A DNA stretch of 64,000 bases from a virus. Below, one piece after another: positions 4,288-61,648 of the stretch. Position 1 is the first letter of the stretch. Every line of letters starts with the position of its first letter. The notes under the pieces were generated by a model. It did no database searches. It worked only from the letters and a program-made list of their open reading frames with translations, and was not told where the DNA came from. The position numbers and the translations under genes are program-made. The stretch spans positions 61,584-125,583 of the IMG/VR virus record IMGVR_UViG_3300042924_008490. One strand, given 5' to 3'.

Positions 4288-4775
4288 ACCTTTCGATAAT
4301 AGCTTGTATTGACCTCAATAGAGCTACCTCAGATAATAATACTTTGCCTCTTTGTAAAAAACATCAAAGAAAGTTAAAAAGGTTAACAAAATTCAATACA
4401 GTTTTGATGGGGAGAAAAGCACAAGATTTTTTCCAAAAACCTTTTGTTGCCACAAGAAATGTTATTTTCTCCAAGGATAAAAAATATTGTAAGCCAAATA
4501 CACATGTTATTTATAATTTTGAAAATGGCTTGAATATTCTTGAATTTTGGAAGAAAGAATTATTTTTCATTGGAGGCAACTCAACCTTCAAAAAAGCATT
4601 TCCATACTGTGATAAATTATATCTTACAGAATTACAAACTACTTTTGAAAATCCTGATAGCTTTCTTCCCGAAATCGACCCAAAAGAATGGAAACTTGTT
4701 TCTGAAGAATTTCACGAAAAAGACATTTGGAATGAATATGATTTCAAATTTAAAGTCTATGAGAGATTAGATTAA
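4284..4775 (+). CDS. folA: Dihydrofolate reductase
   Basis: DHFR reduces dihydrofolate to tetrahydrofolate with NADPH, supporting thymidylate and purine synthesis during phage replication. The 163-residue product matches the usual length. Recognisable blocks are SIIACIDLNRATSDNNTLPL (substrate and Met20-loop region), VLMGRKAQDFF (NADPH site), RNVIFSKD, LFFIGGNSTFKKAFPYCDKLYLTEL (the GG of the cofactor loop) and SFLPEIDPKEW. The usual LPW is LPL here. The gene overlaps the 39-residue gene upstream by 4 nt and is convergent with the minus-strand gene ending at 4772. Confidence 0.9.
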   Translation: MNLSIIACIDLNRATSDNNTLPLCKKHQRKLKRLTKFNTVLMGRKAQDFFQKPFVATRNVIFSKDKKYCKPNTHVIYNFENGLNILEFWKKELFFIGGNSTFKKAFPYCDKLYLTELQTTFENPDSFLPEIDPKEWKLVSEEFHEKDIWNEYDFKFKVYERLD

Positions 4776-5311
4776 ATACTAACCTTGTAATAAACTTTTA
4801 TTTTGAATGTGCCATTACCAATAATAACATTTCCTTGTGAATGAATATATAAACCTGTATTCCTTAGATAAGGAACATGATTCCAAGGAGTATATGAACA
4901 AGTTATAACGTCTTCAGTTGCAGCCATTAAATTATTTTTCATTTCATAAAAATTATAACTGTTTACATAAGGCATTGATACACTTGTTTTAAATTGAAAC
5001 CAAATAGCTTTACTCGGATTGTAAATTGTATTATGACTTAATTCTATTACAATACGATTTATTTCATAATATTCATTTGAAGCCAAATTAGCTTCATCTA
5101 AAACTTGAATAGGTGTAGTATCTATATTAAACAAATCTAACTCATCAACAAATACTGTTTTCAAATCCCATAAATCTATATTGTTTGTGATATAATTTGT
5201 AGCATTTGATAATAAAAATTTTTGATTAACTCCATTGTTTTGAGTGTAAACTTCTTCAGTACCATCTAAAACAGGTCTTACAGGAAAATCATTTGGTTTT
5301 ATCTGTGGCAT
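4772..5311 (-). CDS. Fibre-adaptor-like structural protein, paralogue 1
   Basis: The 179-residue product starts PQIKPNDFPVRPVLDGTEEVYTQNNGVNQKF. The pattern 'LDGxEExYTQxNGVxxKFxL' resembles the N-termini of many phage tail-fibre and baseplate-attached proteins. It is the third of three adjacent paralogues (with 5314-5859 and 5861-6418), which share this head and the stretch LNxNEYYEINRxVxE. It is last in the minus-strand transcript and meets DHFR tail to tail (4-nt overlap at 4772-4775). A virion role is inferred from family pattern and neighbours. Confidence 0.75.
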   Translation of the reverse strand: MPQIKPNDFPVRPVLDGTEEVYTQNNGVNQKFLLSNATNYITNNIDLWDLKTVFVDELDLFNIDTTPIQVLDEANLASNEYYEINRIVIELSHNTIYNPSKAIWFQFKTSVSMPYVNSYNFYEMKNNLMAATEDVITCSYTPWNHVPYLRNTGLYIHSQGNVIIGNGTFKIKVYYKVSI

Positions 5312-5313
5312 AA

Positions 5314-5859
5314 TTAACTTACGATTTTGTAATAAATTTTTATAGTATAATCTGTATCACCTTCTTCCATATTTCCTCCATCCATATCTAAATAAACTCC
5401 GTGATTTCTTCGGAAGACACTTGCAGTATAAGGTGAATAAAAACATAATACACTATCATAAGAAGTCTCAATAAAATTATCAGGAACTTTATAATAATAT
5501 TCAGTAGTATTTAATGCAGTATATCTCGTAGGCTTATATGAAATTAAAGCATCAAAATTACATATCATAGCAGCCCCATTAAATTTAGATTCTATAATAA
5601 CTCTATTTATTTCAAAATATTCATTTAATCCTAAATCTGCCTCATCTAATATAATTACAGGATTAGCTAAAATATCATATGCATCAATAGAATCTATAAA
5701 AATTTCTTTATACAACCATTCATCAGCATACTGTGTTACATATGAAGCCAAAGCTCCTAAAGTAAATTTTTCACTGACTCCATTAGTTTGCGTATAGATT
5801 TCTTCAGAACCATCCAAAACAGGTCTAACAGGAAATGTACTTGGTTTTCTTATGGACAT
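5314..5859 (-). CDS. Fibre-adaptor-like structural protein, paralogue 2
   Basis: The product has 181 residues and the same head (SIRKPSTFPVRPVLDGSEEIYTQTNGVSEKFTL) and tail (DYTIKIYYKIVS) as its two neighbours, with a divergent middle. It is separated by 2 nt from the gene downstream and 1 nt from the one upstream, so the three are one operon. The variable centre could be the receptor- or partner-binding part; this is inference. Confidence 0.75.
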   Translation of the reverse strand: MSIRKPSTFPVRPVLDGSEEIYTQTNGVSEKFTLGALASYVTQYADEWLYKEIFIDSIDAYDILANPVIILDEADLGLNEYFEINRVIIESKFNGAAMICNFDALISYKPTRYTALNTTEYYYKVPDNFIETSYDSVLCFYSPYTASVFRRNHGVYLDMDGGNMEEGDTDYTIKIYYKIVS

Positions 5860-5860
5860 C

Positions 5861-6418
5861 CTAAGATTTTATTTTGTAATAAATTTTTATTTTGAAGACC
5901 GTATCTCCACCGTTACTTGCAGTTAAAGAAGAATCTATATACAAGCCTGTTAATTTTACATAATGCTCAATTATGGCAGGAGAATATAAACAGTAAATTA
6001 TATTCTCGTTACATTCTATCAGAGTATTAGGAAGATTTATAAATATAGAATTGTCAGGGAATGCATTTCCTATAGGAATTGAATTAGATGTTTTAAAGAG
6101 CACATATATATCATCAAGTAGCTTATGTGCAGTACTATTATAATCTGCTTCAAATACTAATCTATTGACCTCATAATATTCATTAGTATTCAAATCATTC
6201 TCACTCAATAATTCAAATTTGGTTGTTGGCAAAGCATCCAAATCTGCACCTGTCATATAAACCTCCTTATATAACCAAGTGTCAATATTCTGAGTTATAT
6301 AAGTACTTACCTGATTCAATGTGAATTTCTCATTGATATCATTTGTTTGTGTATAAATTTCCTCTGAGCCATCCAAAGATAGCTTCAGAGGAAATGTATT
6401 TGGTTTTATGTTTGACAT
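5861..6418 (-). CDS. Fibre-adaptor-like structural protein, paralogue 3
   Basis: The product has 185 residues, beginning SNIKPNTFPLKLSLDGSEEIYTQTNDINEKFTL and ending KIKIYYKIKS. It is the first of the three tandem copies and follows the GP88-like gene by 4 nt. The copies look like products of gene duplication followed by divergence of the central 100 residues. Confidence 0.75.
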   Translation of the reverse strand: MSNIKPNTFPLKLSLDGSEEIYTQTNDINEKFTLNQVSTYITQNIDTWLYKEVYMTGADLDALPTTKFELLSENDLNTNEYYEVNRLVFEADYNSTAHKLLDDIYVLFKTSNSIPIGNAFPDNSIFINLPNTLIECNENIIYCLYSPAIIEHYVKLTGLYIDSSLTASNGGDTVFKIKIYYKIKS

Positions 6419-10250: not shown

Positions 10251-11849
10251 TTATACTTGTCTTGCTAAAGTTGTGTTAAATGCCTGAACGGCTGTATAGA
10301 AATTACTTGCATCAGTATCTGTTAAGCCGTCACCGATACTCATAAAAGCATATTGTTTATTAGAATAAAGCCCAGGGTCAGGTCCTGAAAAAGGTTGACT
10401 ATAAGCATTAGCAATAAATATTTTTGTTGTAGCTCTTAAAGCTGCTGCATTAGTAAAACTTACACCTGTTACAAGGTTTCTAAATATTTTTTGTACACTT
10501 CCAACTCTTGTTGCTACATAAAAAGCTGCTGAGTTTGTATCTGTAAATGATATTACATTTGCATTATTTATCCAACCATAAGAACCTGTTGGGGATGCAC
10601 TTCTATCTAACCCAATACCTAATAATGAATTTGAGTTTCCATCATAAGTACCCATTTCTAAATCTGTTGGTGCAGCTTGGTCAGTTCTTGAATAAACACT
10701 TAAATGAACACTATCAGCAGCAGCAAGAGTAGTATTTGGAACTAAAAAAGTATCGGCATATCCATTAGTACCATTTGCTTGAACCCCATTAGAAGTATGT
10801 GTCCACCCTCCAAAAAAAACTAAGCGAAAAGCTGCATTTGTATCTTGAGGATTTACAAGATTCCATTTGTGAGTGCTTGCTGTCCCCCCAATGAACGGAT
10901 AAACTGCTTTCATCTTAGTCCATATTCCTGCTGTTTTTAAATCATTTACAAGACTATTAACTGCTGACTTTTGAGTAGTATTTGTTATTTCTGATGCATA
11001 TAAAAATGCATTTGTTTCATTGTTATATGCTGTATTATAATAATTTACATTTACAGCATTTATATTTCTACTTAATTCATATTGATATCCTTCAACTATC
11101 TGATTAAATACTAATGCTTCTGTATCAGTTAAACTATCACCAATGCTTGCTAATGCACATTCTCTATTTGCATAATATAAAGGACTTCCATTACTATTAA
11201 CAGCACCAATATAAATGTCAATGTTACTTGTAGAACTAGATACTGCTGTTCCAGATAAGACTGTAGAACCATTTTTATAAGTTTTAATAATATTTGAAGC
11301 AGTTCTACTTCCAATATAAAAACCCGTAGAATTGGCTGAAGCTACTGAATCATAAGCAACACCATTATTAAATCTAAAATATGTAAGATTTGAATTTGAT
11401 GAATTTAAGTCTGAGTAAGAATCAGGTGAAGGTCTTAATGCACCCATATCTATTCTTATTGCAGCAGTTGGTAAATTAGTTCTACTATAAAAAGAAAAAT
11501 GTCCACTATTTAAAGATAAATCATTTTGAGTATCAAGAAATGTGTTTGCATAAGCATTTGTACCATTTGGTAATGCTCCTGTTGCAGTATGTGTCCATCC
11601 ACCAATAAACGATAATCTAAAAGCTGCATTAGTATCAGCAGGATTTTTTAAATTGAACTTATGAGTCGCAGCAGTACCCCCTACAAAAGGATACACTGCC
11701 TTCATTTTGCTCCATATTCCTGCAGCTTTCAAATTTATCACAAGATTATTGATAGCGTTCTTTTGAGTGTTATCAGTTATAGCTGCAGCAGTAATAAATG
11801 CTTGAGCATCAGCATCAAATCCACCAAATATATAAGAATTTATTATCAT
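10251..11849 (-). CDS. Tail-fibre/adhesin with internally duplicated domain
   Basis: The 532-residue product consists of two homologous halves. Residues about 10-255 and 280-525 both contain TQKxAxNxLVxxLKxAGIWxKMKAVYPFxGGTAxTHK followed by NLxNPxDTNAAFRL and GGWTHT. The rest is Ser/Thr/Asn/Gly-rich and beta-prone, as in lectin-like (concanavalin-type) fibre domains. A surface adhesin or tail-fibre role fits, with the start overlapping the preceding fibre gene by 4 nt (ATGA). The duplication could give a trimer with two binding tiers. Confidence 0.75.
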   Translation of the reverse strand: MIINSYIFGGFDADAQAFITAAAITDNTQKNAINNLVINLKAAGIWSKMKAVYPFVGGTAATHKFNLKNPADTNAAFRLSFIGGWTHTATGALPNGTNAYANTFLDTQNDLSLNSGHFSFYSRTNLPTAAIRIDMGALRPSPDSYSDLNSSNSNLTYFRFNNGVAYDSVASANSTGFYIGSRTASNIIKTYKNGSTVLSGTAVSSSTSNIDIYIGAVNSNGSPLYYANRECALASIGDSLTDTEALVFNQIVEGYQYELSRNINAVNVNYYNTAYNNETNAFLYASEITNTTQKSAVNSLVNDLKTAGIWTKMKAVYPFIGGTASTHKWNLVNPQDTNAAFRLVFFGGWTHTSNGVQANGTNGYADTFLVPNTTLAAADSVHLSVYSRTDQAAPTDLEMGTYDGNSNSLLGIGLDRSASPTGSYGWINNANVISFTDTNSAAFYVATRVGSVQKIFRNLVTGVSFTNAAALRATTKIFIANAYSQPFSGPDPGLYSNKQYAFMSIGDGLTDTDASNFYTAVQAFNTTLARQV

Positions 11850-20369: not shown

Positions 20370-20880
20370 GTATATACTACCTACCCCCATTTGCGTATAT
20401 TACGTATATGTCGTATATACTACCTACCCCCATTTGCGTATATTACGTATATGTCGTATATACTACCTACCCCCAATTTGTGTATATTGCGTATATACTA
20501 CCTACCGCTCATTTTACGTATATACAGTATACCTCCTACCTACTTTCGTATATTTGTATATGTCGTATACCTCCCACATACTTTCGTATATGTTGTATAT
20601 TGCGTATATACTACCTACCGCTTATTTGCGTATATGTCGTATATCATAAGAAACTCGTATATCATTTTTTAGTATACCATAAAAAATACTTTCGTATATT
20701 GCGGAGCGATTGCCACAAATTTTTCGTATATTATTTTTCCTTCAAAAGAAGCAAAGATTTTTTTTCGTATATTGCAAGCAATTGCCACGAACAAAGTTCG
20801 TATATTAAAAATAAATTGACAAAAATATTTCGTATACCTTTCAAAAGTAACAATTTATTTTTTCGTATATAAAAAATTTT
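20370..20880. repeat. CGTATAT-rich repeat region with 41-bp tandem units
   Basis: The heptamer CGTATAT occurs every 8-20 bases. Between 20376 and 20470 it is organised in 41-bp tandem units containing CTACCTACCCCCATTTG. All three plus frames are open and translate to Tyr/Ile-rich strings, which is a by-product of the repeat and not evidence of genes. Confidence 0.8.
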
Positions 20881-24084: not shown

Positions 24085-24106
24085 ATGCCTATATCTATCT
24101 GTCGTA

Positions 24107-24250
24107 TATTGCGGAGCAATTGCCACGAACCATGTTCGTATATTGTGGAACAATTGCCACGAACCATGTTCGTATATTGTGGAACAATTGCCACGAACCA
24201 TGTTCGTATATTGTGGAACAATTGCCACGAACCATGTTCGTATATGTCGT
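24107..24250. repeat. 34-bp tandem repeat array with internal palindromes
   Basis: There are four units of 34 bp. Each contains CGTATATTGTGGAACAATTG and CCACGAACCATGTT (the first unit reads GCGGAGC in place of GTGGAAC). Units carry the inverted repeats ACGAAC / GTTCGT and GGAACAATTG. No spacers intervene, so this is not a CRISPR array. Confidence 0.85.
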
Positions 24251-25443: not shown

Positions 25444-25620
25444 ATGTCGTATATCCTAAGAAGTTCGTATATCCTAAGAAGTTCGTATATCATAAGAAGT
25501 TCGTATATCATAAGAAGTTCGTATATCCTAAGAAGTTCGTATATCATAAGAAGTTCGTATATCATAAGAAGTTCGTATATCATAAGAAGTTCGTATATCA
25601 TAAGAAGTTCGTATATCATT
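25444..25620. repeat. 18-bp iteron array (10 units)
   Basis: Ten consecutive near-identical 18-bp units, AAGAAGTTCGTATATCAT or ...TCCT, are arranged head to tail without spacers. Both strands stay open only because 18 is a multiple of three. The arrangement resembles replication or partition iterons. Confidence 0.9.
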
Positions 25621-53145: not shown

Positions 53146-53298
53146 GGTAATTTGGGTTATGGTAATTTGAATCAGTTATGTTAGGTGGGTATTTTGAATA
53201 TTTTTTATTTAAGGCTTTTTTTTATAAATAGATTTCGAAATTTTTAAATTGAGAACAAAAATATTTTGGATTTTTTTTGTTTTTATGGATTTTAATCT

Positions 53299-53306
53299 TA
53301 CCTTTG
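53299..53306 (+). promoter_or_regulatory. Outer promoter of the repeat-gene array
   Basis: TACCTTTG with TTTTGG upstream, about 175 nt before the first array gene. It may serve a leader RNA. Confidence 0.55.
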
Positions 53307-53481: not shown

Positions 53482-53694
53482 ATGGAAAATCTCGGTAAAA
53501 AAATTAATAGTCAACTTCATAGTCAACTTAATAGTGAAATTACTAATCAACTTGATAGGCAATTTGAAAGTCAACTTCGAAATCAAATTATTTATCAACT
53601 TCATAGTAGACTTAATAGACAACTTTTTTGGCAACTTGATAGTGAACTTTATGAGCAACTTAAAAAACAAATGAAGGATGGAAAATTTAAATGA
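53482..53694 (+). CDS. xxQL-repeat array protein 1
   Basis: The 70-residue product begins MENLGKKINSQLHSQLNSEI. Q-L pairs recur every four residues to the end KKQMKDGKFK. It is the first gene of the array and the nearest to the promoter at 53446. It overlaps the next by 17 nt. Confidence 0.7.
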   Translation: MENLGKKINSQLHSQLNSEITNQLDRQFESQLRNQIIYQLHSRLNRQLFWQLDSELYEQLKKQMKDGKFK

Positions 53695-53884
53695 ACAAAT
53701 TGATAGCGGTTTTAGGAGTCAAATTGATTTTGAACTCTGTAGGGAACTTGAATATCGGCTCGATAGGTATCTCAAAATTAAACTTCATAATAAATCTCAA
53801 CTTCTTAGTCCGTTTTATAGTGAAATTAATAGACAAATTCATATACAACTTCAAAATCAAATGGAGCATGAAAAATTTAAATAA
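53678..53884 (+). CDS. xxQL-repeat array protein 2
   Basis: The product is 68 residues (MENLNEQIDSGFRSQID..., ending QLQNQMEHEKFK). The middle is divergent, with LDRYLKIKLHNKS and few Q-L pairs. It overlaps both neighbours by 17 nt. Confidence 0.65.
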   Translation: MENLNEQIDSGFRSQIDFELCRELEYRLDRYLKIKLHNKSQLLSPFYSEINRQIHIQLQNQMEHEKFK

Positions 53885-54068
53885 AGAAGAATGCAGTGGT
53901 CTTAATGAGCCATTGCTTAACAGGCTTGAATGGGAGTTCAATAGAAAGCTTGAAGTTCAGCTTGAACGTAAGCTTTATAATGAAATTCATAGGGAAGTCA
54001 AATGGGGGCTTTACGGTCAAATTCAAAGGCAACTTGAAAAATTAAAGGAAGATGAAAAATCTCAATGA
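53868..54068 (+). CDS. xxQL-repeat array protein 3
   Basis: The product is 66 residues (MKNLNKEECSGLNEPLLNRLEWEF..., ending KEDEKSQ). It has Glu in place of Gln in several repeat positions. Overlaps both neighbours by 17 nt. Confidence 0.65.
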   Translation: MKNLNKEECSGLNEPLLNRLEWEFNRKLEVQLERKLYNEIHREVKWGLYGQIQRQLEKLKEDEKSQ

Positions 54069-54204
54069 TAAAATATGTAATCAACTTCGTAACCAACTTC
54101 GAAATCAAATTCGTAATCAACTTGAAAGTCAACTTGAAAGTCAACTTTATTGGCAACTTAATAGGCAACTTCAAAATCAAATGGAACATGAAAAATTTAA
54201 ATAA
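54052..54204 (+). CDS. xxQL-repeat array protein 4 (short, regular)
   Basis: The product is 50 residues and almost pure repeat: MKNLNDKICNQLRNQLRNQI then NQLESQLESQLYWQLNRQLQ. The regular 4-residue spacing is unbroken from residue 10 to 44. Confidence 0.65.
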   Translation: MKNLNDKICNQLRNQLRNQIRNQLESQLESQLYWQLNRQLQNQMEHEKFK

Positions 54205-54403
54205 AGAGCTTGATAATGGTCTTAATAATAAAGTTAGTCCGCTTTATAGTGAGGTTGTTAGTTACCTTCAAATTGACAATAAACTTTATTGGGAACTTGA
54301 ACGTCTGCTTGATAGGGATGTCAGAGAGTTACTTTATAGTGGACTTAATAGTCAACTTTATAATCAGCTTTATTTACAAATGGAACATGGAAAATTTAAA
54401 TAA
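54188..54403 (+). CDS. xxQL-repeat array protein 5
   Basis: The product is 71 residues (MKNLNKELDNGLNNKVSPLYSEVV...), with a repeat-poor N-half and LYSGLNSQLYNQLYLQMEHGKFK at the end. Confidence 0.65.
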   Translation: MKNLNKELDNGLNNKVSPLYSEVVSYLQIDNKLYWELERLLDRDVRELLYSGLNSQLYNQLYLQMEHGKFK

Positions 54404-54527
54404 GAAAATCTTTAATAGTATTGATAGTAAACTTCATAGTCAACTGAGTAGTAAATTTCATTGGAGGCTTTACAGTGAGATTAAAAGTGGGGTTAAAACT
54501 CAAATGGAACATGGAAAATTTAAATAA
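54387..54527 (+). CDS. xxQL-repeat array protein 6 (short)
   Basis: The product is 46 residues (MENLNKKIFNSIDSKLHSQLSSKFHW..., ending QMEHGKFK). Overlaps both neighbours by 17 nt. Confidence 0.62.
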   Translation: MENLNKKIFNSIDSKLHSQLSSKFHWRLYSEIKSGVKTQMEHGKFK

Positions 54528-54702
54528 GAAAATCAGTAATGGAATAGCAGGGGAGTTCATTAAGCTCAGTCTTATGCAACATTTAAATTTAGAATGGGGA
54601 TTGAGTAGTATGCTTATTGGTAAATTGGATGGGGTAACTGTTGGTTTTAACATGCAACTTGGTAGTCAACTTAAAAAAAATATAACAGATGGAAAATTTT
54701 AA
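54511..54702 (+). CDS. xxQL-repeat array protein 7 (divergent)
   Basis: The product is 63 residues. After MENLNKKISNGIAGEFIKLS the repeat is almost lost, and the end is LKKNITDGKF with a TAA, so the last junction codon is changed. The overlap with gene 8 is 14 nt. Confidence 0.6.
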   Translation: MENLNKKISNGIAGEFIKLSLMQHLNLEWGLSSMLIGKLDGVTVGFNMQLGSQLKKNITDGKF

Positions 54703-54961
54703 TCTTATATTGACTAAAAAAATTAGGAGTCAACTTTATAGGCAAATTAATAGACAATTTTATAGTCAACTTGATAGGCAACTTCGTAGTCAATTTAATA
54801 TTCAACTTAGTAGTCAACTTGATTGGCAACTTCATTGGGAGCTTAATAGTCAACTCCATAGTAAAATTAATAGTCAAATTAATAATCAACTTTATTGGCA
54901 ACTTCATTGGGAGCTTAATGAACAACTTAAAACTCAAATGAAAGATGGAAAATTTAAATAA
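54689..54961 (+). CDS. xxQL-repeat array protein 8 (longest repeat member)
   Basis: At 90 residues this is the longest repeat member. MENFNLILTKKIRSQLYRQI is followed by an unbroken xxQL/xxQI run to LKTQMKDGKFK, with two copies of YWQLHWELN or DWQLHWELN. Confidence 0.7.
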   Translation: MENFNLILTKKIRSQLYRQINRQFYSQLDRQLRSQFNIQLSSQLDWQLHWELNSQLHSKINSQINNQLYWQLHWELNEQLKTQMKDGKFK

Positions 54962-55061
54962 GAAAATGTATAGGGGTTTTCATATTAAACTTGATAGTGA
55001 ACTTGATTACCAAATTTGCAGGCAACTTAAAAAACAAATGAAGGATGGAAAATCTCAGTAA
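54945..55061 (+). CDS. xxQL-repeat array protein 9 (short)
   Basis: The product is 38 residues (MENLNKKMYRGFHIKLDSEL..., ending KKQMKDGKSQ). Short members such as this keep both the head and the tail of the family and lose the middle. Confidence 0.6.
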   Translation: MENLNKKMYRGFHIKLDSELDYQICRQLKKQMKDGKSQ

Positions 55062-55257
55062 AAAAATTAATAGTCAACTTCACAGTCAACTTTATGATAA
55101 ACTTTATGGGCAACTTTATAGTCCACTTGATAGACAACTTCATAATCAACTTCATAATAAACTTGATAGACAACTTGAAAGTCAAATTTATGAGCAACTT
55201 TATGGGCAACAACGTGTTCAACTTAGAAGGCAACTTAAAAAAACTAAAGGAATATGA
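55045..55257 (+). CDS. xxQL-repeat array protein 10
   Basis: The product is 70 residues (MENLSKKINSQLHSQLYDKLYG...), ending RRQLKKTKGI, a different tail. It overlaps the next gene by 4 nt (ATGA) in place of the usual 17. Confidence 0.66.
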   Translation: MENLSKKINSQLHSQLYDKLYGQLYSPLDRQLHNQLHNKLDRQLESQIYEQLYGQQRVQLRRQLKKTKGI

Positions 55258-55502
55258 AAAATCTCAATAATAAAATCTGTAATCAACTTAGTGAAAATAT
55301 TAATTTTCAACTTAATAAAAAAAAATTAGATTGGCAGCTTAGTGTAGAGGTTTATGATAAATTGAATGCCCCACTTTACATTAATTTACGCAGTCAGCTT
55401 AACGGTCGCATTGGTACACAACTTTACAGGGAGATTAATTTACTTCATTGGGAATTTAATGAACAATTTATAAAACAAATGGAAGATGGAAAATTTAAAT
55501 GA
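55254..55502 (+). CDS. xxQL-repeat array protein 11
   Basis: The product is 82 residues (MKNLNNKICNQLSENINFQL...), with a less regular middle (KLNAPLYINLRSQLNGRIG) and the tail QMEDGKFK. Confidence 0.66.
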   Translation: MKNLNNKICNQLSENINFQLNKKKLDWQLSVEVYDKLNAPLYINLRSQLNGRIGTQLYREINLLHWEFNEQFIKQMEDGKFK

Positions 55503-55695
55503 TAAAATCCGTAGTGGTCTTAATTTGCAACTTGATATTCAACTTGATTGGCAAAGTTATTGGGGCTATAGGGACTATAGAAACCTAATTCGTAATCAAC
55601 TTGAAAGTCGACTTTATTGGCAACTTGATAGTGGACTTGATAATCTACTTAGTAATCAACTTAAAACTCAAATGAAGAATGGAAAATTTAAATAA
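55486..55695 (+). CDS. xxQL-repeat array protein 12
   Basis: The product is 69 residues (MENLNDKIRSGLNLQLDIQL...), with SYWGYRDYRNLIRNQLES, closely similar to the next gene, so these two are a recent duplication. Confidence 0.67.
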   Translation: MENLNDKIRSGLNLQLDIQLDWQSYWGYRDYRNLIRNQLESRLYWQLDSGLDNLLSNQLKTQMKNGKFK

Positions 55696-55891
55696 GAAAA
55701 TCCGTAGGGGTTTTAATATTAAACTTGATAGTGAACTTAACAACGAACTTGATAGGCGAAGTTATTGGGACTATAAAACCCTAATTCGTAATCAACTTCG
55801 TAATCAACTTGAAAGTCAACTTTTTTGGATACTTGATGAACGACTTGGTGAACAACTTAAAACTCAAATGGAACATGGAAAATCTCAGTAA
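55679..55891 (+). CDS. xxQL-repeat array protein 13
   Basis: The product is 70 residues (MENLNKKIRRGFNIKLDSEL...), with SYWDYKTLIRNQLRNQLES, the partner of gene 12. Tail QMEHGKSQ. Confidence 0.67.
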   Translation: MENLNKKIRRGFNIKLDSELNNELDRRSYWDYKTLIRNQLRNQLESQLFWILDERLGEQLKTQMEHGKSQ

Positions 55892-55988
55892 AAAAATATG
55901 TAATCAACTTTGTAGTCAACTTGATAGTCAACTTGAAAATCAAATTAATAATCAACTTAAAACTCAAATGGAGAATGAAAAATTTTAA
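55875..55988 (+). CDS. xxQL-repeat array protein 14 (short)
   Basis: At 37 residues this is the shortest member: MENLSKKICNQLCSQLDSQL, then ENQINNQLKTQMENEKF. Overlap with the next gene is 14 nt. Confidence 0.6.
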   Translation: MENLSKKICNQLCSQLDSQLENQINNQLKTQMENEKF

Positions 55989-56151
55989 TGAGAAAATCCG
56001 TAATCAACTTCGTAGTGAACTTCATAATAAACTTTATAAGCAAATTGATAGAAAACTTGCTATAGCTGTTCATTTGGAACTTGACAGTCAAATAGGTATT
56101 CAACCCTGTTTTGAAATTAATAAGCAGCTTAAACGATTAAATGGAAGATGA
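55975..56151 (+). CDS. xxQL-repeat array protein 15
   Basis: The product is 58 residues (MKNFNEKIRNQLRSELHNKLYKQID...), ending KQLKRLNGR. It overlaps gene 16 by 4 nt (ATGA). Confidence 0.64.
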   Translation: MKNFNEKIRNQLRSELHNKLYKQIDRKLAIAVHLELDSQIGIQPCFEINKQLKRLNGR

Positions 56152-56336
56152 AAAATCTCAATAGGAAAATATATAGTCAACTTGGTAATCAACTTGATAG
56201 GCTAATTTTTTGGCAATTTGAAAGGCAACTTCGTAGTGAACTCGGTAAAAAAATTCGTAGTCCGCTTCGTAGACAATTCTATTGGCAGATTAATGAACAA
56301 ATTAAAACTCAAATGAAAGATGGAAAATCTCAGTAA
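56148..56336 (+). CDS. xxQL-repeat array protein 16
   Basis: The product is 62 residues (MKNLNRKIYSQLGNQLDRLI, then FWQFERQLRSELGKKI...), tail QMKDGKSQ. Confidence 0.66.
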   Translation: MKNLNRKIYSQLGNQLDRLIFWQFERQLRSELGKKIRSPLRRQFYWQINEQIKTQMKDGKSQ

Positions 56337-56496
56337 AAAAATATGTAATCAACTTCTTAGTACACTTTACAGTCAACTTGGTAGAAAACTTCAAAATCAA
56401 CTTATTAATAAACTTAATAGACAACTTTATTGGCAATTTGATAGTCAACTTAGTAATCAACTTGAAACTCAAATGAAAGATGGAAAATTTAAATGA
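56320..56496 (+). CDS. xxQL-repeat array protein 17
   Basis: The product is 58 residues (MENLSKKICNQLLSTLYSQL...), with RQLYWQFDSQLSNQLETQMKDGKFK. A regular repeat member. Confidence 0.66.
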   Translation: MENLSKKICNQLLSTLYSQLGRKLQNQLINKLNRQLYWQFDSQLSNQLETQMKDGKFK

Positions 56497-56683
56497 AGAG
56501 CTAAATAATAATAATCAACTTAGTAGTCAACTAAATAATCAAATCGATAGACAACTTGAAAGTCAAGTTTATGAGCACCTTTTTTGGCAAATCCGTATCC
56601 AACTTAATAGGCAATTGTATTCACCATTATATAATCCACTTTTTAATAGAATTTATAATCAAATGGAGCATGGAAAATCTTAG
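56480..56683 (+). CDS. xxQL-repeat array protein 18
   Basis: The product is 67 residues (MENLNEELNNNNQLSSQLNN...), with an Asn-rich start and QMEHGKS end. Overlap with the next gene is 14 nt. Confidence 0.65.
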   Translation: MENLNEELNNNNQLSSQLNNQIDRQLESQVYEHLFWQIRIQLNRQLYSPLYNPLFNRIYNQMEHGKS

Positions 56684-56876
56684 TGATAAAATTTATTGGG
56701 AGATATATAGAAGTTTTCATAATACGATTTGTTCTGAAACTTATAGTGGAATAGAATTTAAACTTCGAAAGAAGCTTGAGGAGAGTCTTTGTGAGGATAT
56801 TGAGGTTAAATGTCGTTGGCAGCTTTGTGGTGAAATTAATTTTCAACTTGAAAAAAATATTAAAAATGAAGAATAA
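56670..56876 (+). CDS. xxQL-repeat array protein 19 (divergent)
   Basis: The product is 68 residues. MENLSDKIYWEIYRSFHNTI keeps the head only; the middle has Cys/Glu-rich RKKLEESLCEDIEVKCRWQLCGE and the end KNIKNEE differs. Confidence 0.62.
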   Translation: MENLSDKIYWEIYRSFHNTICSETYSGIEFKLRKKLEESLCEDIEVKCRWQLCGEINFQLEKNIKNEE

Positions 56877-57078
56877 GAATGATGAAATAACTGAAGGATT
56901 TGATTCTTTTAATAAAAATCTTCAATTGGAGATTATGAGTCAATTACAGCCATATGGTATTCATGCAAGGCTTGGTAATTTGCTTTCTGAGAAAATTAAC
57001 AGGAGTCTTAGATGGCAATTAAGAACTCAATTGGATATGTGCTTGATTGACTTTAAGATTAAAAAAAGTTATGTTTGA
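56866..57078 (+). CDS. xxQL-repeat array protein 20 (divergent)
   Basis: The product is 70 residues (MKNKNDEITEGFDSFNKNLQLE...). It keeps only SRxLRWQLRTQLD. It is a globular-looking relative with no repeat run. It ends 3 nt before the next ATG. Confidence 0.6.
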   Translation: MKNKNDEITEGFDSFNKNLQLEIMSQLQPYGIHARLGNLLSEKINRSLRWQLRTQLDMCLIDFKIKKSYV

Positions 57079-57081
57079 AAT

Positions 57082-57261
57082 ATGGAAAATCTTAGTAAAG
57101 ATATTAATAATGAAATTTATAGTCAATTAACTAATCAACTCCGTAGTCTACTCGGTAGTCAAATTGATTGGCAACTTCGTAGTAAACTTCATAGTCAAAT
57201 TGATAATCAACTTCATTGGGAATTTAATGAACAAATTAAAATTCAAATGGAACATGAATAA
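57082..57261 (+). CDS. xxQL-repeat array protein 21
   Basis: The product is 59 residues (MENLSKDINNEIYSQLTNQL...), with SQIDWQLRSKLHSQIDNQLHWEF and a truncated tail QMEHE. Overlap with the next gene is 8 nt. Confidence 0.65.
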   Translation: MENLSKDINNEIYSQLTNQLRSLLGSQIDWQLRSKLHSQIDNQLHWEFNEQIKIQMEHE

Positions 57262-57466
57262 TTTAAATGATAAAATTTGTGAAGATATAGATTTACTTCG
57301 CAGGAATCTCAATATTGATTTAAGAAAGCCACTTGATATCTATCTTTATAGAAGTTTGTATAGAGGGGTTATGGATGAGCAGATTGATGGGATTTTTTGG
57401 CAAATGTCTTTAATGGTTATGAACAAAATAAAAAATATTAAGAAAGATGAAGAATTTGAATTCTAA
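57254..57466 (+). CDS. xxQL-repeat array protein 22 (divergent)
   Basis: The product is 70 residues (MNNLNDKICEDIDLLRRNLN...). Few repeats remain; it ends IKKDEEFEF. A helical, charged protein. Confidence 0.6.
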   Translation: MNNLNDKICEDIDLLRRNLNIDLRKPLDIYLYRSLYRGVMDEQIDGIFWQMSLMVMNKIKNIKKDEEFEF

Positions 57467-57662
57467 GATACACAGAGATATATATATCGATTTCATTCAT
57501 GAAATTGGTGAAGAGTTGACTGAAGGGAAGATAGATGGGGATTTTCTTTTTGAGCTTGACAGATTGATTTTGTCAAATGTGCTTTTTGATGCAAGGCGTA
57601 GTTTTAGATTGATTAATTCTCAAGTGAAACATAAAATTTCTAATGAAAAATCTGAACAATAA
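57447..57662 (+). CDS. xxQL-repeat array protein 23 (divergent)
   Basis: The product is 71 residues (MKNLNSKIHRDIYIDFIHEI...), with almost no repeat left but the conserved head. Tail ISNEKSEQ. Overlap 20 nt with its left neighbour. Confidence 0.6.
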   Translation: MKNLNSKIHRDIYIDFIHEIGEELTEGKIDGDFLFELDRLILSNVLFDARRSFRLINSQVKHKISNEKSEQ

Positions 57663-57870
57663 GCTTGAAAATAGGCTTAATAGAAAAATTGTGGACAAGC
57701 TCTATGTTCAAATCACTAAAAACCAAGATAGTGAGCTTCGTAGTCAACTTGATTGGCAACTTCATAGGAAAATTCGATTAAAAATTTTTAGGGGAATCGT
57801 TTGGAAGATGAGTGATAAACTACTAATTAAGCAACTTAAAAATAAATTGAAGGATGGAAAATCTAAATAA
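57643..57870 (+). CDS. xxQL-repeat array protein 24
   Basis: The product is 75 residues (MKNLNNKLENRLNRKIVDKL...), basic, with SELRSQLDWQLHRKI in the middle and KLKDGKSK at the end. Confidence 0.64.
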   Translation: MKNLNNKLENRLNRKIVDKLYVQITKNQDSELRSQLDWQLHRKIRLKIFRGIVWKMSDKLLIKQLKNKLKDGKSK

Positions 57871-58078
57871 AAAACTTTGTAGTCAAATTGATAGGAAACT
57901 TGATGGGAAACTTAATAGTCAAATCTATAGTCAACTTCGTAGGCAACTTGAGAATCAACTTGAAAGGCAACTTGATTGGCAACTTGATTGGCAACTTCGC
58001 AGTCAACTTTATTGGGAACTTGAAAGTCAACTTGGTAATCAACTTAAAACTCAATTGAAGGATGGAAAATCTAAATAA
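57854..58078 (+). CDS. xxQL-repeat array protein 25 (most regular)
   Basis: The product is 74 residues with an unbroken repeat from residue 9 to 66: SQIDRKLDGKLNSQIYSQL, then LERQLDWQLDWQLRSQLYW. It is the model member for the family. Confidence 0.7.
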   Translation: MENLNKKLCSQIDRKLDGKLNSQIYSQLRRQLENQLERQLDWQLDWQLRSQLYWELESQLGNQLKTQLKDGKSK

Positions 58079-58262
58079 CAGGATGATGGTTTGTCTATAT
58101 TCTAATTTAGGAGGAGAGCTTCATAGGGAGGTTAGATGTAGTCTGAATAAAAAGGTTAGCAGTTTGATTGAGAGGCAGCTTCTAAGGAAATTTTGGAAAG
58201 ATATAGATTTAGAATTTAATAGATTAATAACAAATCAATTGAAACATGGAAAATATCAGTAA
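58062..58262 (+). CDS. xxQL-repeat array protein 26 (divergent)
   Basis: The product is 66 residues (MENLNNRMMVCLYSNLGGEL...), with few Q-L pairs and the tail QLKHGKYQ. Confidence 0.62.
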   Translation: MENLNNRMMVCLYSNLGGELHREVRCSLNKKVSSLIERQLLRKFWKDIDLEFNRLITNQLKHGKYQ

Positions 58263-58446
58263 AGATATTAATAGTGAACTTAATAGCCAAATTCATATAC
58301 GACTCCGTAGTCAACTCGGTAGTCAACTTAAAGTTGCTCGTGAAATGCAACTTCTTAGTCCACTTTACAGTCAACTCGGTAATCAACTTGATAGGCAACT
58401 TTATAACCAATTTAGTACTCAAATGAAACATGGAAAATCTCAGTAA
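58246..58446 (+). CDS. xxQL-repeat array protein 27
   Basis: The product is 66 residues (MENISKDINSELNSQIHIRL, then RSQLGSQLKVAREMQLLSP...). Shares GSQLKVAxEM with gene 28, so these two are recent duplicates. Confidence 0.67.
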   Translation: MENISKDINSELNSQIHIRLRSQLGSQLKVAREMQLLSPLYSQLGNQLDRQLYNQFSTQMKHGKSQ

Positions 58447-58642
58447 AGATATTAATAGTGAAATTTATAGTCAATTAACTAAACAACTCCATAGTCAACT
58501 CGGTAGTCAACTTAAAGTTGCTAATGAAATGCTACTTGGTCGTCAACTTATTAGTCAACTCACTCTTCAATTTAATATGGGACTTTGTAGTCTACTTGAT
58601 AGGCAACTTAAAAATCAAATGAAAAATGGAAAATCTCAGTAA
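58430..58642 (+). CDS. xxQL-repeat array protein 28
   Basis: The product is 70 residues (MENLSKDINSEIYSQLTKQL, then HSQLGSQLKVANEMLLGRQ...). The partner of gene 27; its head is also close to gene 21. Confidence 0.67.
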   Translation: MENLSKDINSEIYSQLTKQLHSQLGSQLKVANEMLLGRQLISQLTLQFNMGLCSLLDRQLKNQMKNGKSQ

Positions 58643-58847
58643 TAAAGTAAATATAAATATTCAAATGAAAATTTATAATATTCTCCACAGGCAAATTGAT
58701 AAAAAGGTTGGTATGAAAGTTCGTCTATTGATAGATAGACAACTTGGTAGTCGAATTGATAGTCAACTTCGTAATCAACTTGATAGGCAACTTGATAATC
58801 GACTTGAAAGGCTAATTTTTTGGCAAATTGATAATCAACTCAAATAA
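58626..58847 (+). CDS. xxQL-repeat array protein 29
   Basis: The product is 73 residues (MENLSNKVNINIQMKIYNIL...). The C-half is regular (RQLDNRLERLIFWQIDNQLK) and the tail is missing, as the stop comes early. An 87-nt remnant follows. Confidence 0.65.
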   Translation: MENLSNKVNINIQMKIYNILHRQIDKKVGMKVRLLIDRQLGSRIDSQLRNQLDRQLDNRLERLIFWQIDNQLK

Positions 58848-58934
58848 CTGATTGCGTTGATAGCAAACTTGACTGGCAACTGAGTGAAGGTATTAATAGA
58901 TTACTTGAATTACATGTTAATAATTTAAAATAAT
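58848..58934 (+). pseudogene. Remnant of an array gene
   Basis: Directly after the stop of gene 29 a frame without a start reads TDCVDSKLDWQLSEGINRLL and ends LHVNNLK. It is the only gap of this size in the array and looks like a decayed C-terminus. Confidence 0.55.
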
Positions 58935-59135
58935 ATGAAAAATCTCAATAGAAAGATATATAGTCAACTTTATAGTCAATTGGATAGTCAAATTGAAAGT
59001 CAATGTAATGAACAAATTTATTGGCAAATATATTGGCAACTTCGTACTAAAATTGATATGCTACTTCATAATCAACTTAAAAGTAGAATTAAAAGTCAAC
59101 TTAAAAATCAAATGAAAAATGGAAAATCTCAATAG
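58935..59135 (+). CDS. xxQL-repeat array protein 30
   Basis: The product is 66 residues (MKNLNRKIYSQLYSQLDSQI...), with IYWQIYWQLRTKID and the tail QMKNGKSQ. Confidence 0.66.
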   Translation: MKNLNRKIYSQLYSQLDSQIESQCNEQIYWQIYWQLRTKIDMLLHNQLKSRIKSQLKNQMKNGKSQ

Positions 59136-59322
59136 AAAAATTTATATTAAATTTGCGGATAGGTTTCATGGGGAATTTCGTAATGAGACTGAAAGGGAGC
59201 TTGATAGTTATCTTGTGGATGATGTTTTGTCTCGATTGAAGGTTAGGATATTTGTAGACTTAAATGTAGGAATCAATTTACAACTTCAGGAATTTAATAA
59301 TAATTCAAAAGAAATAATATGA
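59119..59322 (+). CDS. xxQL-repeat array protein 31 (divergent)
   Basis: The product is 67 residues (MENLNRKIYIKFADRFHGEF...). It is acidic and repeat-poor, ends in NNNSKEII, and overlaps the membrane-protein gene by 4 nt (ATGA), so the two are translated together. Confidence 0.62.
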   Translation: MENLNRKIYIKFADRFHGEFRNETERELDSYLVDDVLSRLKVRIFVDLNVGINLQLQEFNNNSKEII

Positions 59323-60152
59323 AATATATAATAGGAATTTTTTGGAAGTACAGATGGTCATTGGCATTGATATATTTTTTGATAGTGGTATGTGAGCTTT
59401 TGTATTTATTTTTTTGGCAGATATTAGGTTTGGCTATTGATGGGTTATTGGTTGGTGACTATTTTTATTTGGTTATATTGTTATTGGTAAATTTCTTTGG
59501 GAATTTATTACATTACCGTAGGATGATATATGATACGAGGGTATATATGCGGATAAACAATGACATTGTATATTCTTATTTAGGAGGATGTAAATTAGAT
59601 GTATCTGCTAAATCTGCTCGTACTGAGATGGCGAGTAACGTGGTTAATTTTTTTGAGAATGATGTGACTTATTACATAGGTTCTTTTATTCATATATTTG
59701 GCAGTTTATATTTCATATTTTATTTGAAGTATGAGGTTGGGTTGATTGTGATATGCAGTATAGTCTTCATAGGGTTTATTGTATATAAATTTTATTCTAA
59801 GATAGGTCAGATAACTTTGTTGATACATAATCATATGGAGGGTAAGGTTAAGGTTCTTGAATTTGGTGGGGATATTGGCATTCGTAATTTTTATGAGAGG
59901 CGGAAATTTTTGTTGGAGAAGAATTCTGAGATACAAGCGAAGCATTGGTTTTCTTTGAATATGGTTAGGTTGTTATTTTTGTTAGGATGTATAGTTGTGT
60001 TTACAAATGGGAATTATGGTTTGACACAGGGGCAGACGATATCGATGTATATGTATATAAATCAATTTTTGATTTCTTTGATGGTTATTCCTATAGCTGT
60101 GGAGACGTTTATGAGGATTAAGGATGTTATAAAAAGGTTGGGTAAATTTTAA
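59319..60152 (+). CDS. Orphan ABC-exporter-like transmembrane domain
   Basis: The 277-residue product has six hydrophobic segments (about residues 14-36, 46-62, 120-137, 140-160, 220-235 and 245-262). The layout, with VCELLYLFFWQILGLAIDGLLVG at the start and TEMASNVVNFFENDVTYYIGSF after the second helix, matches the membrane half of ABC exporters. There is no nucleotide-binding domain in the protein or nearby. It lies between array genes and is coupled to gene 31. It could use a host ATPase or not be a transporter at all. Confidence 0.72.
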   Translation: MKYIIGIFWKYRWSLALIYFLIVVCELLYLFFWQILGLAIDGLLVGDYFYLVILLLVNFFGNLLHYRRMIYDTRVYMRINNDIVYSYLGGCKLDVSAKSARTEMASNVVNFFENDVTYYIGSFIHIFGSLYFIFYLKYEVGLIVICSIVFIGFIVYKFYSKIGQITLLIHNHMEGKVKVLEFGGDIGIRNFYERRKFLLEKNSEIQAKHWFSLNMVRLLFLLGCIVVFTNGNYGLTQGQTISMYMYINQFLISLMVIPIAVETFMRIKDVIKRLGKF

Positions 60153-60164
60153 CTCAAAAGAAAC

Positions 60165-60362
60165 ATGAAAAATCTCAATAAAGAAATTTGTAATCAATTT
60201 GAAGTGAAATTTCGCCATAAGTTACTACATCAGCTTTACAATCAATGTGACATTCAAACGAAAGATATGGTGCTTAGTCATGTTAAGATTGAGCTTTTTC
60301 AGCAGTTATACAGAAATCTTAAAACTCAAATAGATTGGTTGCTGAAGAAAAATTTGAAATAA
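60165..60362 (+). CDS. xxQL-repeat array protein 32 (divergent)
   Basis: The product is 65 residues (MKNLNKEICNQFEVKFRHKLLHQLYNQ...), repeat-poor, ending in KTQIDWLLKKNLK. It is the first array gene after the membrane protein. Confidence 0.62.
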   Translation: MKNLNKEICNQFEVKFRHKLLHQLYNQCDIQTKDMVLSHVKIELFQQLYRNLKTQIDWLLKKNLK

Positions 60363-60387
60363 ATTTCTTTTTTTGAAATATTATTTT

Positions 60388-60395
60388 TACCTTTG
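60388..60395 (+). promoter_or_regulatory. Internal promoter in the array
   Basis: TACCTTTG with TTTTTTTGAAATATT upstream lies in a 60-nt gap between array genes, 27 nt before the ATG at 60423. It would drive the last seven genes separately. Confidence 0.65.
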
Positions 60396-60422
60396 AGGGA
60401 AATAATTTAATTCTGATGGAAC

Positions 60423-60671
60423 ATGGAAAATTTAAAGGATAAAATTCATAGTCAACTTGGTACTCAAATTGATTGGAAACTTCATAGTCAACTTGGTACT
60501 CAAATTGATTGGAAACTTCATAGTCAACTTGGTACTCAAATTGATGGGAAACTTTATAATGAACTTGATAGTCAACTTAATAGGCAAGTCAATAATCAAC
60601 TTGATAGGCTAATTTTTTGGCAAATTGACAATCAACTTAAAACTCAAATGGTGCATGGAAAATCTCAGTAG
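60423..60671 (+). CDS. xxQL-repeat array protein 33 (internal expansion)
   Basis: The product is 82 residues. Three tandem copies of a 12-residue unit HSQLGTQIDWKL, each coded by a near-identical 36-bp repeat (60447-60554), follow the head MENLKDKI. This is direct evidence that members grow by slippage in whole repeat units. Confidence 0.7.
   Translation: MENLKDKIHSQLGTQIDWKLHSQLGTQIDWKLHSQLGTQIDGKLYNELDSQLNRQVNNQLDRLIFWQIDNQLKTQMVHGKSQ
60447..60554 (+). repeat. Three 36-bp tandem repeats inside an array gene
   Basis: The units start at 60447, 60483 and 60519 and differ at one base (T to G in the third). Each is three xxQL-type tetrapeptides. Confidence 0.9.
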
Positions 60672-60858
60672 AAAGATACATAGTTCCCAATTTGTTAAAA
60701 TTCATAGGGAGCTTAATGGAGAACTTGATTGGAGATTTAGTCTTAAAGTGCAGAATTATATCACCGATGAATTACAAATGAGAGCTGTCAAAATTATATT
60801 TGGTTTATTGAATATACAACTTTTGAAGGAACTTAAAAAGAAAAATGGAAAATTTTAA
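60655..60858 (+). CDS. xxQL-repeat array protein 34 (divergent)
   Basis: The product is 67 residues (MENLSRKIHSSQFVKIHREL...), with few Q-L pairs and the tail KKKNGKF. Overlap with the next gene is 14 nt. Confidence 0.62.
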   Translation: MENLSRKIHSSQFVKIHRELNGELDWRFSLKVQNYITDELQMRAVKIIFGLLNIQLLKELKKKNGKF

Positions 60859-61057
60859 TCGTGAAATCAGTAATAGAGTTCATGAAGAACTTTGCAATAA
60901 AGCCTATATTGAACTTTCTAAGCAATTATATTGGGAGCTCTATAGAACACTTCATACTCAATTGATGAATCCAATTGAAAAGCAATGTAGTGAGCAATTT
61001 TTTTGGCAACTTTATGGGCAACTTCAAAATCAAATGGAACATGAAAAATCTCAATAG
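60845..61057 (+). CDS. xxQL-repeat array protein 35
   Basis: The product is 70 residues (MENFNREISNRVHEELCNKA...), with FFWQLYGQLQNQMEHEKSQ at the end. Confidence 0.65.
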   Translation: MENFNREISNRVHEELCNKAYIELSKQLYWELYRTLHTQLMNPIEKQCSEQFFWQLYGQLQNQMEHEKSQ

Positions 61058-61265
61058 AAAAATATGTAGTAAACTTAATAGTCAACTTGATAGTGGACTG
61101 CATAGACAAATTCGTGAGCAACTTCATTCGGAATTAGGTATGCAACTTGATAGGCAACTTTATGAGCAACTTCTTAATAAACTTGAAAATCAAATTTATG
61201 TGCAACTTTATGGGCGAATCAATAGGCAACTTAGAACTCAAATGGAAGATGGAAAATCTCAATAG
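61041..61265 (+). CDS. xxQL-repeat array protein 36
   Basis: The product is 74 residues (MKNLNRKICSKLNSQLDSGL...), with a regular repeat to RQLRTQMEDGKSQ. Confidence 0.67.
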   Translation: MKNLNRKICSKLNSQLDSGLHRQIREQLHSELGMQLDRQLYEQLLNKLENQIYVQLYGRINRQLRTQMEDGKSQ

Positions 61266-61449
61266 AAAAATTCGTAATAGTATTCATTTGAAATTTAATA
61301 ATAGTGTTGAGAGGGTAAATTATCAATTCGATAGTAAATTACATAGTGAACTCCGTATGGAATTTAACAATCCAATTTACAATCAAATCAATTGGGAGCT
61401 TCATAGCAAACTAAATAATCAAATTCAAATGGAACATGGAAAATCTTAA
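61249..61449 (+). CDS. xxQL-repeat array protein 37
   Basis: The product is 66 residues (MENLNRKIRNSIHLKFNNSV...), Asn-rich, ending QIQMEHGKS. It overlaps the next gene by 14 nt. Confidence 0.65.
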   Translation: MENLNRKIRNSIHLKFNNSVERVNYQFDSKLHSELRMEFNNPIYNQINWELHSKLNNQIQMEHGKS

Positions 61450-61648
61450 TTATGAAATTCTTCATCAATCTATGTGGAATATGTATGATGAAATAAAAAA
61501 ATCAAATTTTCAAATGGATGGTATGGAGGATTCAAAAAGAGTTGAAATTTTAGAATTTTATCTGCTTCCTTACTTTGTAAAATATGAAGAATATGAAATA
61601 GCTAATGAATTAAAAAAGCAAATTTTAGCGATTAGAAAATCTCATTAA
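61436..61648 (+). CDS. Array-terminal protein with family head, different body
   Basis: The product is 70 residues. It keeps MENLNYEI and the 14-nt overlap, but the rest (MEDSKRVEILEFYLLPYFVKYEEYEIANELKKQIL) is an ordinary two-helix fold. It may be the ancestor-like single-copy neighbour from which the junction spread, or a fusion. It is member 38 of the count. Confidence 0.65.
   Translation: MENLNYEILHQSMWNMYDEIKKSNFQMDGMEDSKRVEILEFYLLPYFVKYEEYEIANELKKQILAIRKSH

Follow-up and report, generated by a model that had tools for sequence, protein, structure and literature searches.

Tetrapeptide repeats of the form xx(polar)(aliphatic) are known from proteins with the domain DUF6745 (PF20530), which in Alphaproteobacteria, other bacteria and some phages contain internal runs of xxQV, xxQL, xxNL or xSSL. 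The gp54 protein of mycobacteriophage Tweety (PMC2884959) has tetrapeptide repeats encoded by a 12-nt unit in which the first and second codon bases vary but the third bases do not, and its repeat number differs between related phages. In fungal NLR proteins (PMC4986451), too, the repeats are homogeneous, vary at some positions and change in copy number; they serve as a model for recognition modules. Here we describe an array of 38 mini-genes at 53482-61648 (+ strand) of a 64,000-nt stretch of viral DNA, called the window, which is the right half (61584-125583) of the 125.6-kb viral contig IMGVR_UViG_3300042924_008490. The array shares with DUF6745 proteins a tetrad with a polar third and an aliphatic fourth residue, and related arrays in other viruses adjoin a DUF6745 gene with an empty insert point. 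It differs in that the window repeats are 38 separate proteins without a DUF6745 domain, and no such domain was found in the window phage contig. The AAxx repeat of Tweety gp54 lies within one long protein, with no gene array and no overlaps, whereas the fungal repeats are eukaryotic WD, ANK and TPR repeats in receptors, where positive selection has been shown, unlike in the window array. This is a recurrent type of phage gene array for which we found no described counterpart. We favor, at a probability of about 0.55, the reading that it is the repeat helix of DUF6745 split from the domain and amplified into a set of small helical proteins with a binding role.

All 38 open reading frames (ORFs) start with ATG. 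Their lengths of 37-90 codons agree with a preliminary description of this DNA, and the four-residue repeat reported there was confirmed. Hydrophobic residues of the mini-proteins recurred at lag 4 in 384 cases against 163 expected (z 24.6) and again at lags 8 (z 20.2) and 12 (z 18.7), while lags 1 and 3 were depleted. The period was significant singly in 34 of the 38 mini-genes, including three (54387, 58062 and 59119, named by their starts) from which Q-L has nearly gone. No significant period was found in 54511, 57447 and 61436, and 55486 was borderline (p 0.077). The earlier statement that 57447 and 56866 have almost no repeat thus held for the first but not for the second, whose hydrophobic period is significant (p 0.001). 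An exact 4-unit CAAMTY pattern had 12 matches, all within the array, and none in shuffles. At in-register position 4, one-step changes of CTT gave 56 hydrophobic codons (ATT 34, TTT 16, GTT 6) and a single CCT, CAT or CGT, even though CTT to CCT is a transition. Replacement almost solely by hydrophobic residues therefore indicates selection on the protein, and supports the conclusion that the array is coding and under protein-level selection. The ratio of nonsynonymous to synonymous polymorphism among paralogues (about 3) was not used, since it is biased by the shuffling of units and by ungapped pairing.

The mini-proteins are predicted to be helical, mostly as a single helix; AlphaFold2 gave one helix (residues 2-73) for member 57854. 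This matches one of two structures proposed initially, a helix with a slowly rotating stripe. A single helix stabilized by glutamine side chains (PMC9674830) was rejected as an explanation: the rule favors a bulky residue four positions before each Gln, which in the mini-proteins is another Gln.

The mini-genes are packed tightly: counting the embedded ABC gene, 98% of 53482-61648 is coding. Among the 37 junctions, overlaps of 17 nt (22 junctions), 14 nt (five), 20 nt (two), 4 nt (two), 11 nt (one) and 8 nt (one) were found, besides one gap of 3 nt and single gaps of 60, 87 and 842 nt. At each 17- or 14-nt overlap the reading frame moves on by one, which makes the array cycle through the three frames. 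In a 17-nt overlap the same DNA forms a gene's tail and the head of its successor; for example, GATGGAAAATTTAAATGA encodes DGKFK* and, in the next frame, MENLN. All 27 mini-genes with a 17- or 14-nt overlap had a (G/E)K(F/S/Y) end, and none of the 11 others did. The tail is therefore a by-product of the overlap, and the motif QMxxGK(F/S), at first taken for a conserved protein feature, is largely the next gene's head in another frame. The gene for a 277-aa ABC_membrane_3 protein, not mentioned before, breaks the array. Tandem periods of whole genes (100 and 196 bp) and duplications within genes (36 and 72 bp) agree with the proposal that a single mini-gene keeps duplicating and diversifying. 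We infer that the 38 mini-genes form a single transcription unit and are translationally coupled. Besides the promoter match upstream of mini-gene 1 (Table 1), the consensus was matched near the array only at 59399-59432, within the ABC gene. On the minus strand over the array, short open frames also contain xxQV-like repeats, the unit being almost a palindrome (CTTG/CAAG).

Related arrays occur in other viruses. L152, a phage fragment of 16.9 kb, was reached through a scan for the 12-nt-period pattern. Its mini-genes, about 18 on both strands, have the head MKSVHKQI, xxQV repeats and overlaps of 17, 14 or 4 nt. At least one gene or gene start with the head MKSVxxQ(V/I) was found in 28 other viral contigs, about 20 of which have two or more in tandem and one at least 23. 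Overlaps in these MKSV arrays are usually 4, 14 or 17 nt, and the window array likewise consists of tandem small ORFs with a common head and overlaps of these lengths. The heads aligned with a probability of 75% over the first 25 columns of the window and MKSV profiles in hhalign (MKNLNKKI against MKSVHKQI), a score of the kind that low complexity inflates in repeat proteins. Judged by the similar heads, the geometry of the overlaps and the tetrad, the window array is probably homologous to the MKSV arrays, short of proof. Window-type (MENL) heads were seen in no other contig. A third type, with two xxQL genes sharing a common tail, was found in L127/L153. No MKSV heads were confirmed in the genomes of 84,980 prokaryote species; they were found in phages only. 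A first CAAMTY scan mostly hit chance frames or single proteins resembling DUF6745, and these matches were discarded. INPHARED matches of one MKSV protein to terminal ORFs of Staphylococcus podophages were also rejected, as the annotated gene encodes an unrelated acidic EST-repeat protein. L152 also contains a second small tandem family (10578-11329), three genes starting MTD(I/V)VERL.

The arrays are linked to DUF6745. In L152, a DUF6745 protein (PF20530, 126 bits) is encoded among the mini-genes, and a DUF6745 gene was present in 18 of the 28 array contigs, not all of them independent, compared to 0 of 29 control viral records from other phage groups (Fisher p 4e-8). The gene has the same strand as the adjoining mini-genes, lies within 181 nt of them in 14 of 15 loci measured, and touches or overlaps them in two or three. 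The DUF6745 linkage of the MKSV arrays is thus supported. The DUF6745 proteins of the array contigs are short (288-317 aa) and lack the repeat insert; a linker stands where the long forms have it. The tetrad of the long-form inserts, an accessory feature that does not define the domain, is shared by the mini-genes. That the same tetrad is fused inside DUF6745 in some genomes and split into genes in others is the main functional clue. The likeness to DUF6745 xxQ(V/L) repeats, raised in the preliminary description, is hence real and much stronger than could be known there. Profile searches (Pfam, PADLOC) placed the mini-proteins in no known family, in line with its suggestion of a possibly undescribed system, and none of the window mini-genes has a DUF6745 domain above the Pfam cut-off. 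The predicted DUF6745 model is confident (predicted local distance difference test, pLDDT, 90). It had no match in the PDB by sequence or fold, and among viral structures it matched only DUF6745 proteins and unnamed fragments. No paper naming DUF6745 was found among the openly licensed papers searched.

Since long DUF6745 forms carry the tetrad as an insert, the arrays are most simply explained as the DUF6745 repeat helix moved to separate genes and multiplied. The MKSV arrays are the best-sampled branch of this array type and usually centre on a DUF6745 gene without repeats. One transcript would carry the 38 coupled mini-genes of the window, each for a small protein built of x1-x2-Q-(L/I/F/V) tetrads in which position 4 would be structurally constrained and x1 and x2 free to vary. 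The relocated and multiplied helices might then act as variable modules: the winding stripe of hydrophobic residues would pair them with one another and with DUF6745-like partners, leaving the variable x1/x2 faces for the binding of a target. Such a partner could, in the window phage, be encoded elsewhere or be other array members. Binding, partner and target are what we infer from this arrangement; a role in host conflict or counter-defence is plausible. A broader proposal, which we hold only tentatively and think doubtful, is a widespread but undescribed phage system of two parts, in which a DUF6745 core is combined with a rapidly varying repertoire of tetrad helices from separate genes that set its specificity, for use against hosts or rival phages.

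Several results weigh against the split-helix reading. No DUF6745 gene was found in the 125.6-kb window phage contig, which is possibly incomplete, or in one 102.6-kb array phage. Several array contigs are closely related (L251, L254, L260, L267 and L277), hence the lack of full independence among the 18 of 28, and the 29 controls were not lineage-matched. The exact junction pattern and the window-type heads had no relatives in IMG/VR, and 78 endolysin relatives had no array in the flanks examined. The reverse strand of the window array also matched the MKSV profile (E 5e-8), so the tetrad alone is misleading. Finally, the mean pLDDT of 93 for the lone helix of member 57854 should be read with care, as AlphaFold2 readily predicts helices for such sequences.

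An unlikely alternative, though one with some evidence behind it, is a counter-defence repertoire, in which variant inhibitors or decoys of host defence are amplified accordion-like and DUF6745 is merely a frequent neighbor. The 38 copies in one phage and at least 23 in another would suit it, as would in-frame unit indels between close relatives, the confinement of MKSV heads to phages and the diversity at x1 and x2 (10 and 8.5 effective amino acids in the MKSV arrays). However, x1 and x2 vary only modestly more than the synonymous third base of the Gln codon does, which does not demonstrate diversifying selection. PADLOC profiles had no match for a window mini-protein or DUF6745, and one MKSV protein matched only weakly (E at least 0.005).

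There is little to recommend neutral or selfish expansion, in which slippage of the 12-bp unit and recombination produce functionless open frames. Tandem 12-bp units do hold several frames open on both strands, and codons are homogeneous, with CTT making up 63% of Leu codons in the window array compared to 18% elsewhere. Yet the position-4 bias already speaks against a purely neutral process, as does a period kept where Q-L is nearly gone; the ATG starts and overlaps are conserved, and some 28 other contigs and the DUF6745 linkage would also need explaining.

Equally improbable is a role at the nucleotide level, with the 12-nt unit (core TCARGTC in MKSV arrays, TCAACTT in the window) serving as a translated binding or recombination site. 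In its favor is codon use in the MKSV arrays. The third base of x2 was T in 663 of 672 NNY codons (counted in L152, L234, L237, L238, L240, L241, L256, L263, L267, L269, L274 and L276), whereas neighboring genes of those contigs use C in 40% (p 1e-127). Val is nearly always GTC (most of 866 units), again unlike the neighboring genes. Recent homogenization explains this constancy poorly because the Gln third base varies. The window array, however, also tolerates G and A at the x2 third base, and a nucleotide site would leave the hydrophobic-only position 4, the ATG overlaps and the tetrads inside DUF6745 proteins unexplained.

Export of the mini-proteins as secreted peptides by the embedded ABC_membrane_3 protein is very improbable: the gene lies inside the array and overlaps the upstream mini-gene by 4 nt, but its product lacks an ATPase domain and had no homologue in IMG/VR or INPHARED phages, no leader or Gly-Gly motif was seen by eye in the mini-proteins, and reading of the ORFs at other array loci, where no systematic search was made, revealed no ABC gene. 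A diversity-generating retroelement target was rejected, as no reverse transcriptase (PF00078) was found in the window phage contig.

Table 1. Features of the mini-gene array and its upstream region (window coordinates).
Feature	Position	Strand	Basis and remarks
Promoter match TTTG-N19-TACCTTTG, Bacteroidota type	53276..53306	+	Consensus scan; 175 nt 5' of mini-gene 1
Mini-genes 1-29, nearly all overlapping the next by 4-20 nt	53482..58847	+	ORFs, period test, junctions
Starts of mini-genes 1-15	53482, 53678, 53868, 54052, 54188, 54387, 54511, 54689, 54945, 55045, 55254, 55486, 55679, 55875, 55975		
Starts of mini-genes 16-29	56148, 56320, 56480, 56670, 56866, 57082, 57254, 57447, 57643, 57854, 58062, 58246, 58430, 58626		
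Mini-genes 30-31, starts 58935, 59119	58935..59322	+	Last 4 nt of 59119 (ATGA) shared with the start of the ABC gene
277-aa ABC transporter transmembrane region protein, no ATPase domain, inside array	59319..60152	+	PF13748 (ABC_membrane_3), E 4.7e-21
Mini-gene 32	60165..60362	+	ORF, period test, junctions
Mini-genes 33-38, starts 60423, 60655, 60845, 61041, 61249, 61436	60423..61648	+	61436 has lost the period-4 pattern

The window phage most likely infects Bacteroidota. Its terminase is T4-like, with the Flavobacterium phages vB_FspM_immuto as nearest named relatives (29%), and the Bacteroidota promoter TTTG-N17-23-TAnnTTTG occurs 47 times in the window against 7.8 expected; the host assignment follows from these two results. 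Outside the array, tandem repeats of 43/38, 34 and 18 bp with a common CGTATAT core were found at 20370-20608, 24102-24245 and 25447-25619 of the window, among short ORFs, and are possibly regulatory or origin-related. Three consecutive genes of contig L006 (4966-12277) start MKPNNFPxRP and have long NTIGNxF repeats, which makes them candidates for tail-fibre-like beta-solenoids; shorter genes with a similar start are present at 4772-6418 (- strand) of the window. Apparent intein-like insertions were seen by eye in a portal-like ORF (L007, 2294-4813) and a protease-like ORF (L006, 18390-19814).

The 8 kb devoted to one class of mini-gene are a large investment for a phage. The arrays give DUF6745 a concrete genetic partner, and their recurrence in many phages, next to a core protein with this repeat in its long forms, is a lead to what may be a new variable-binding system.
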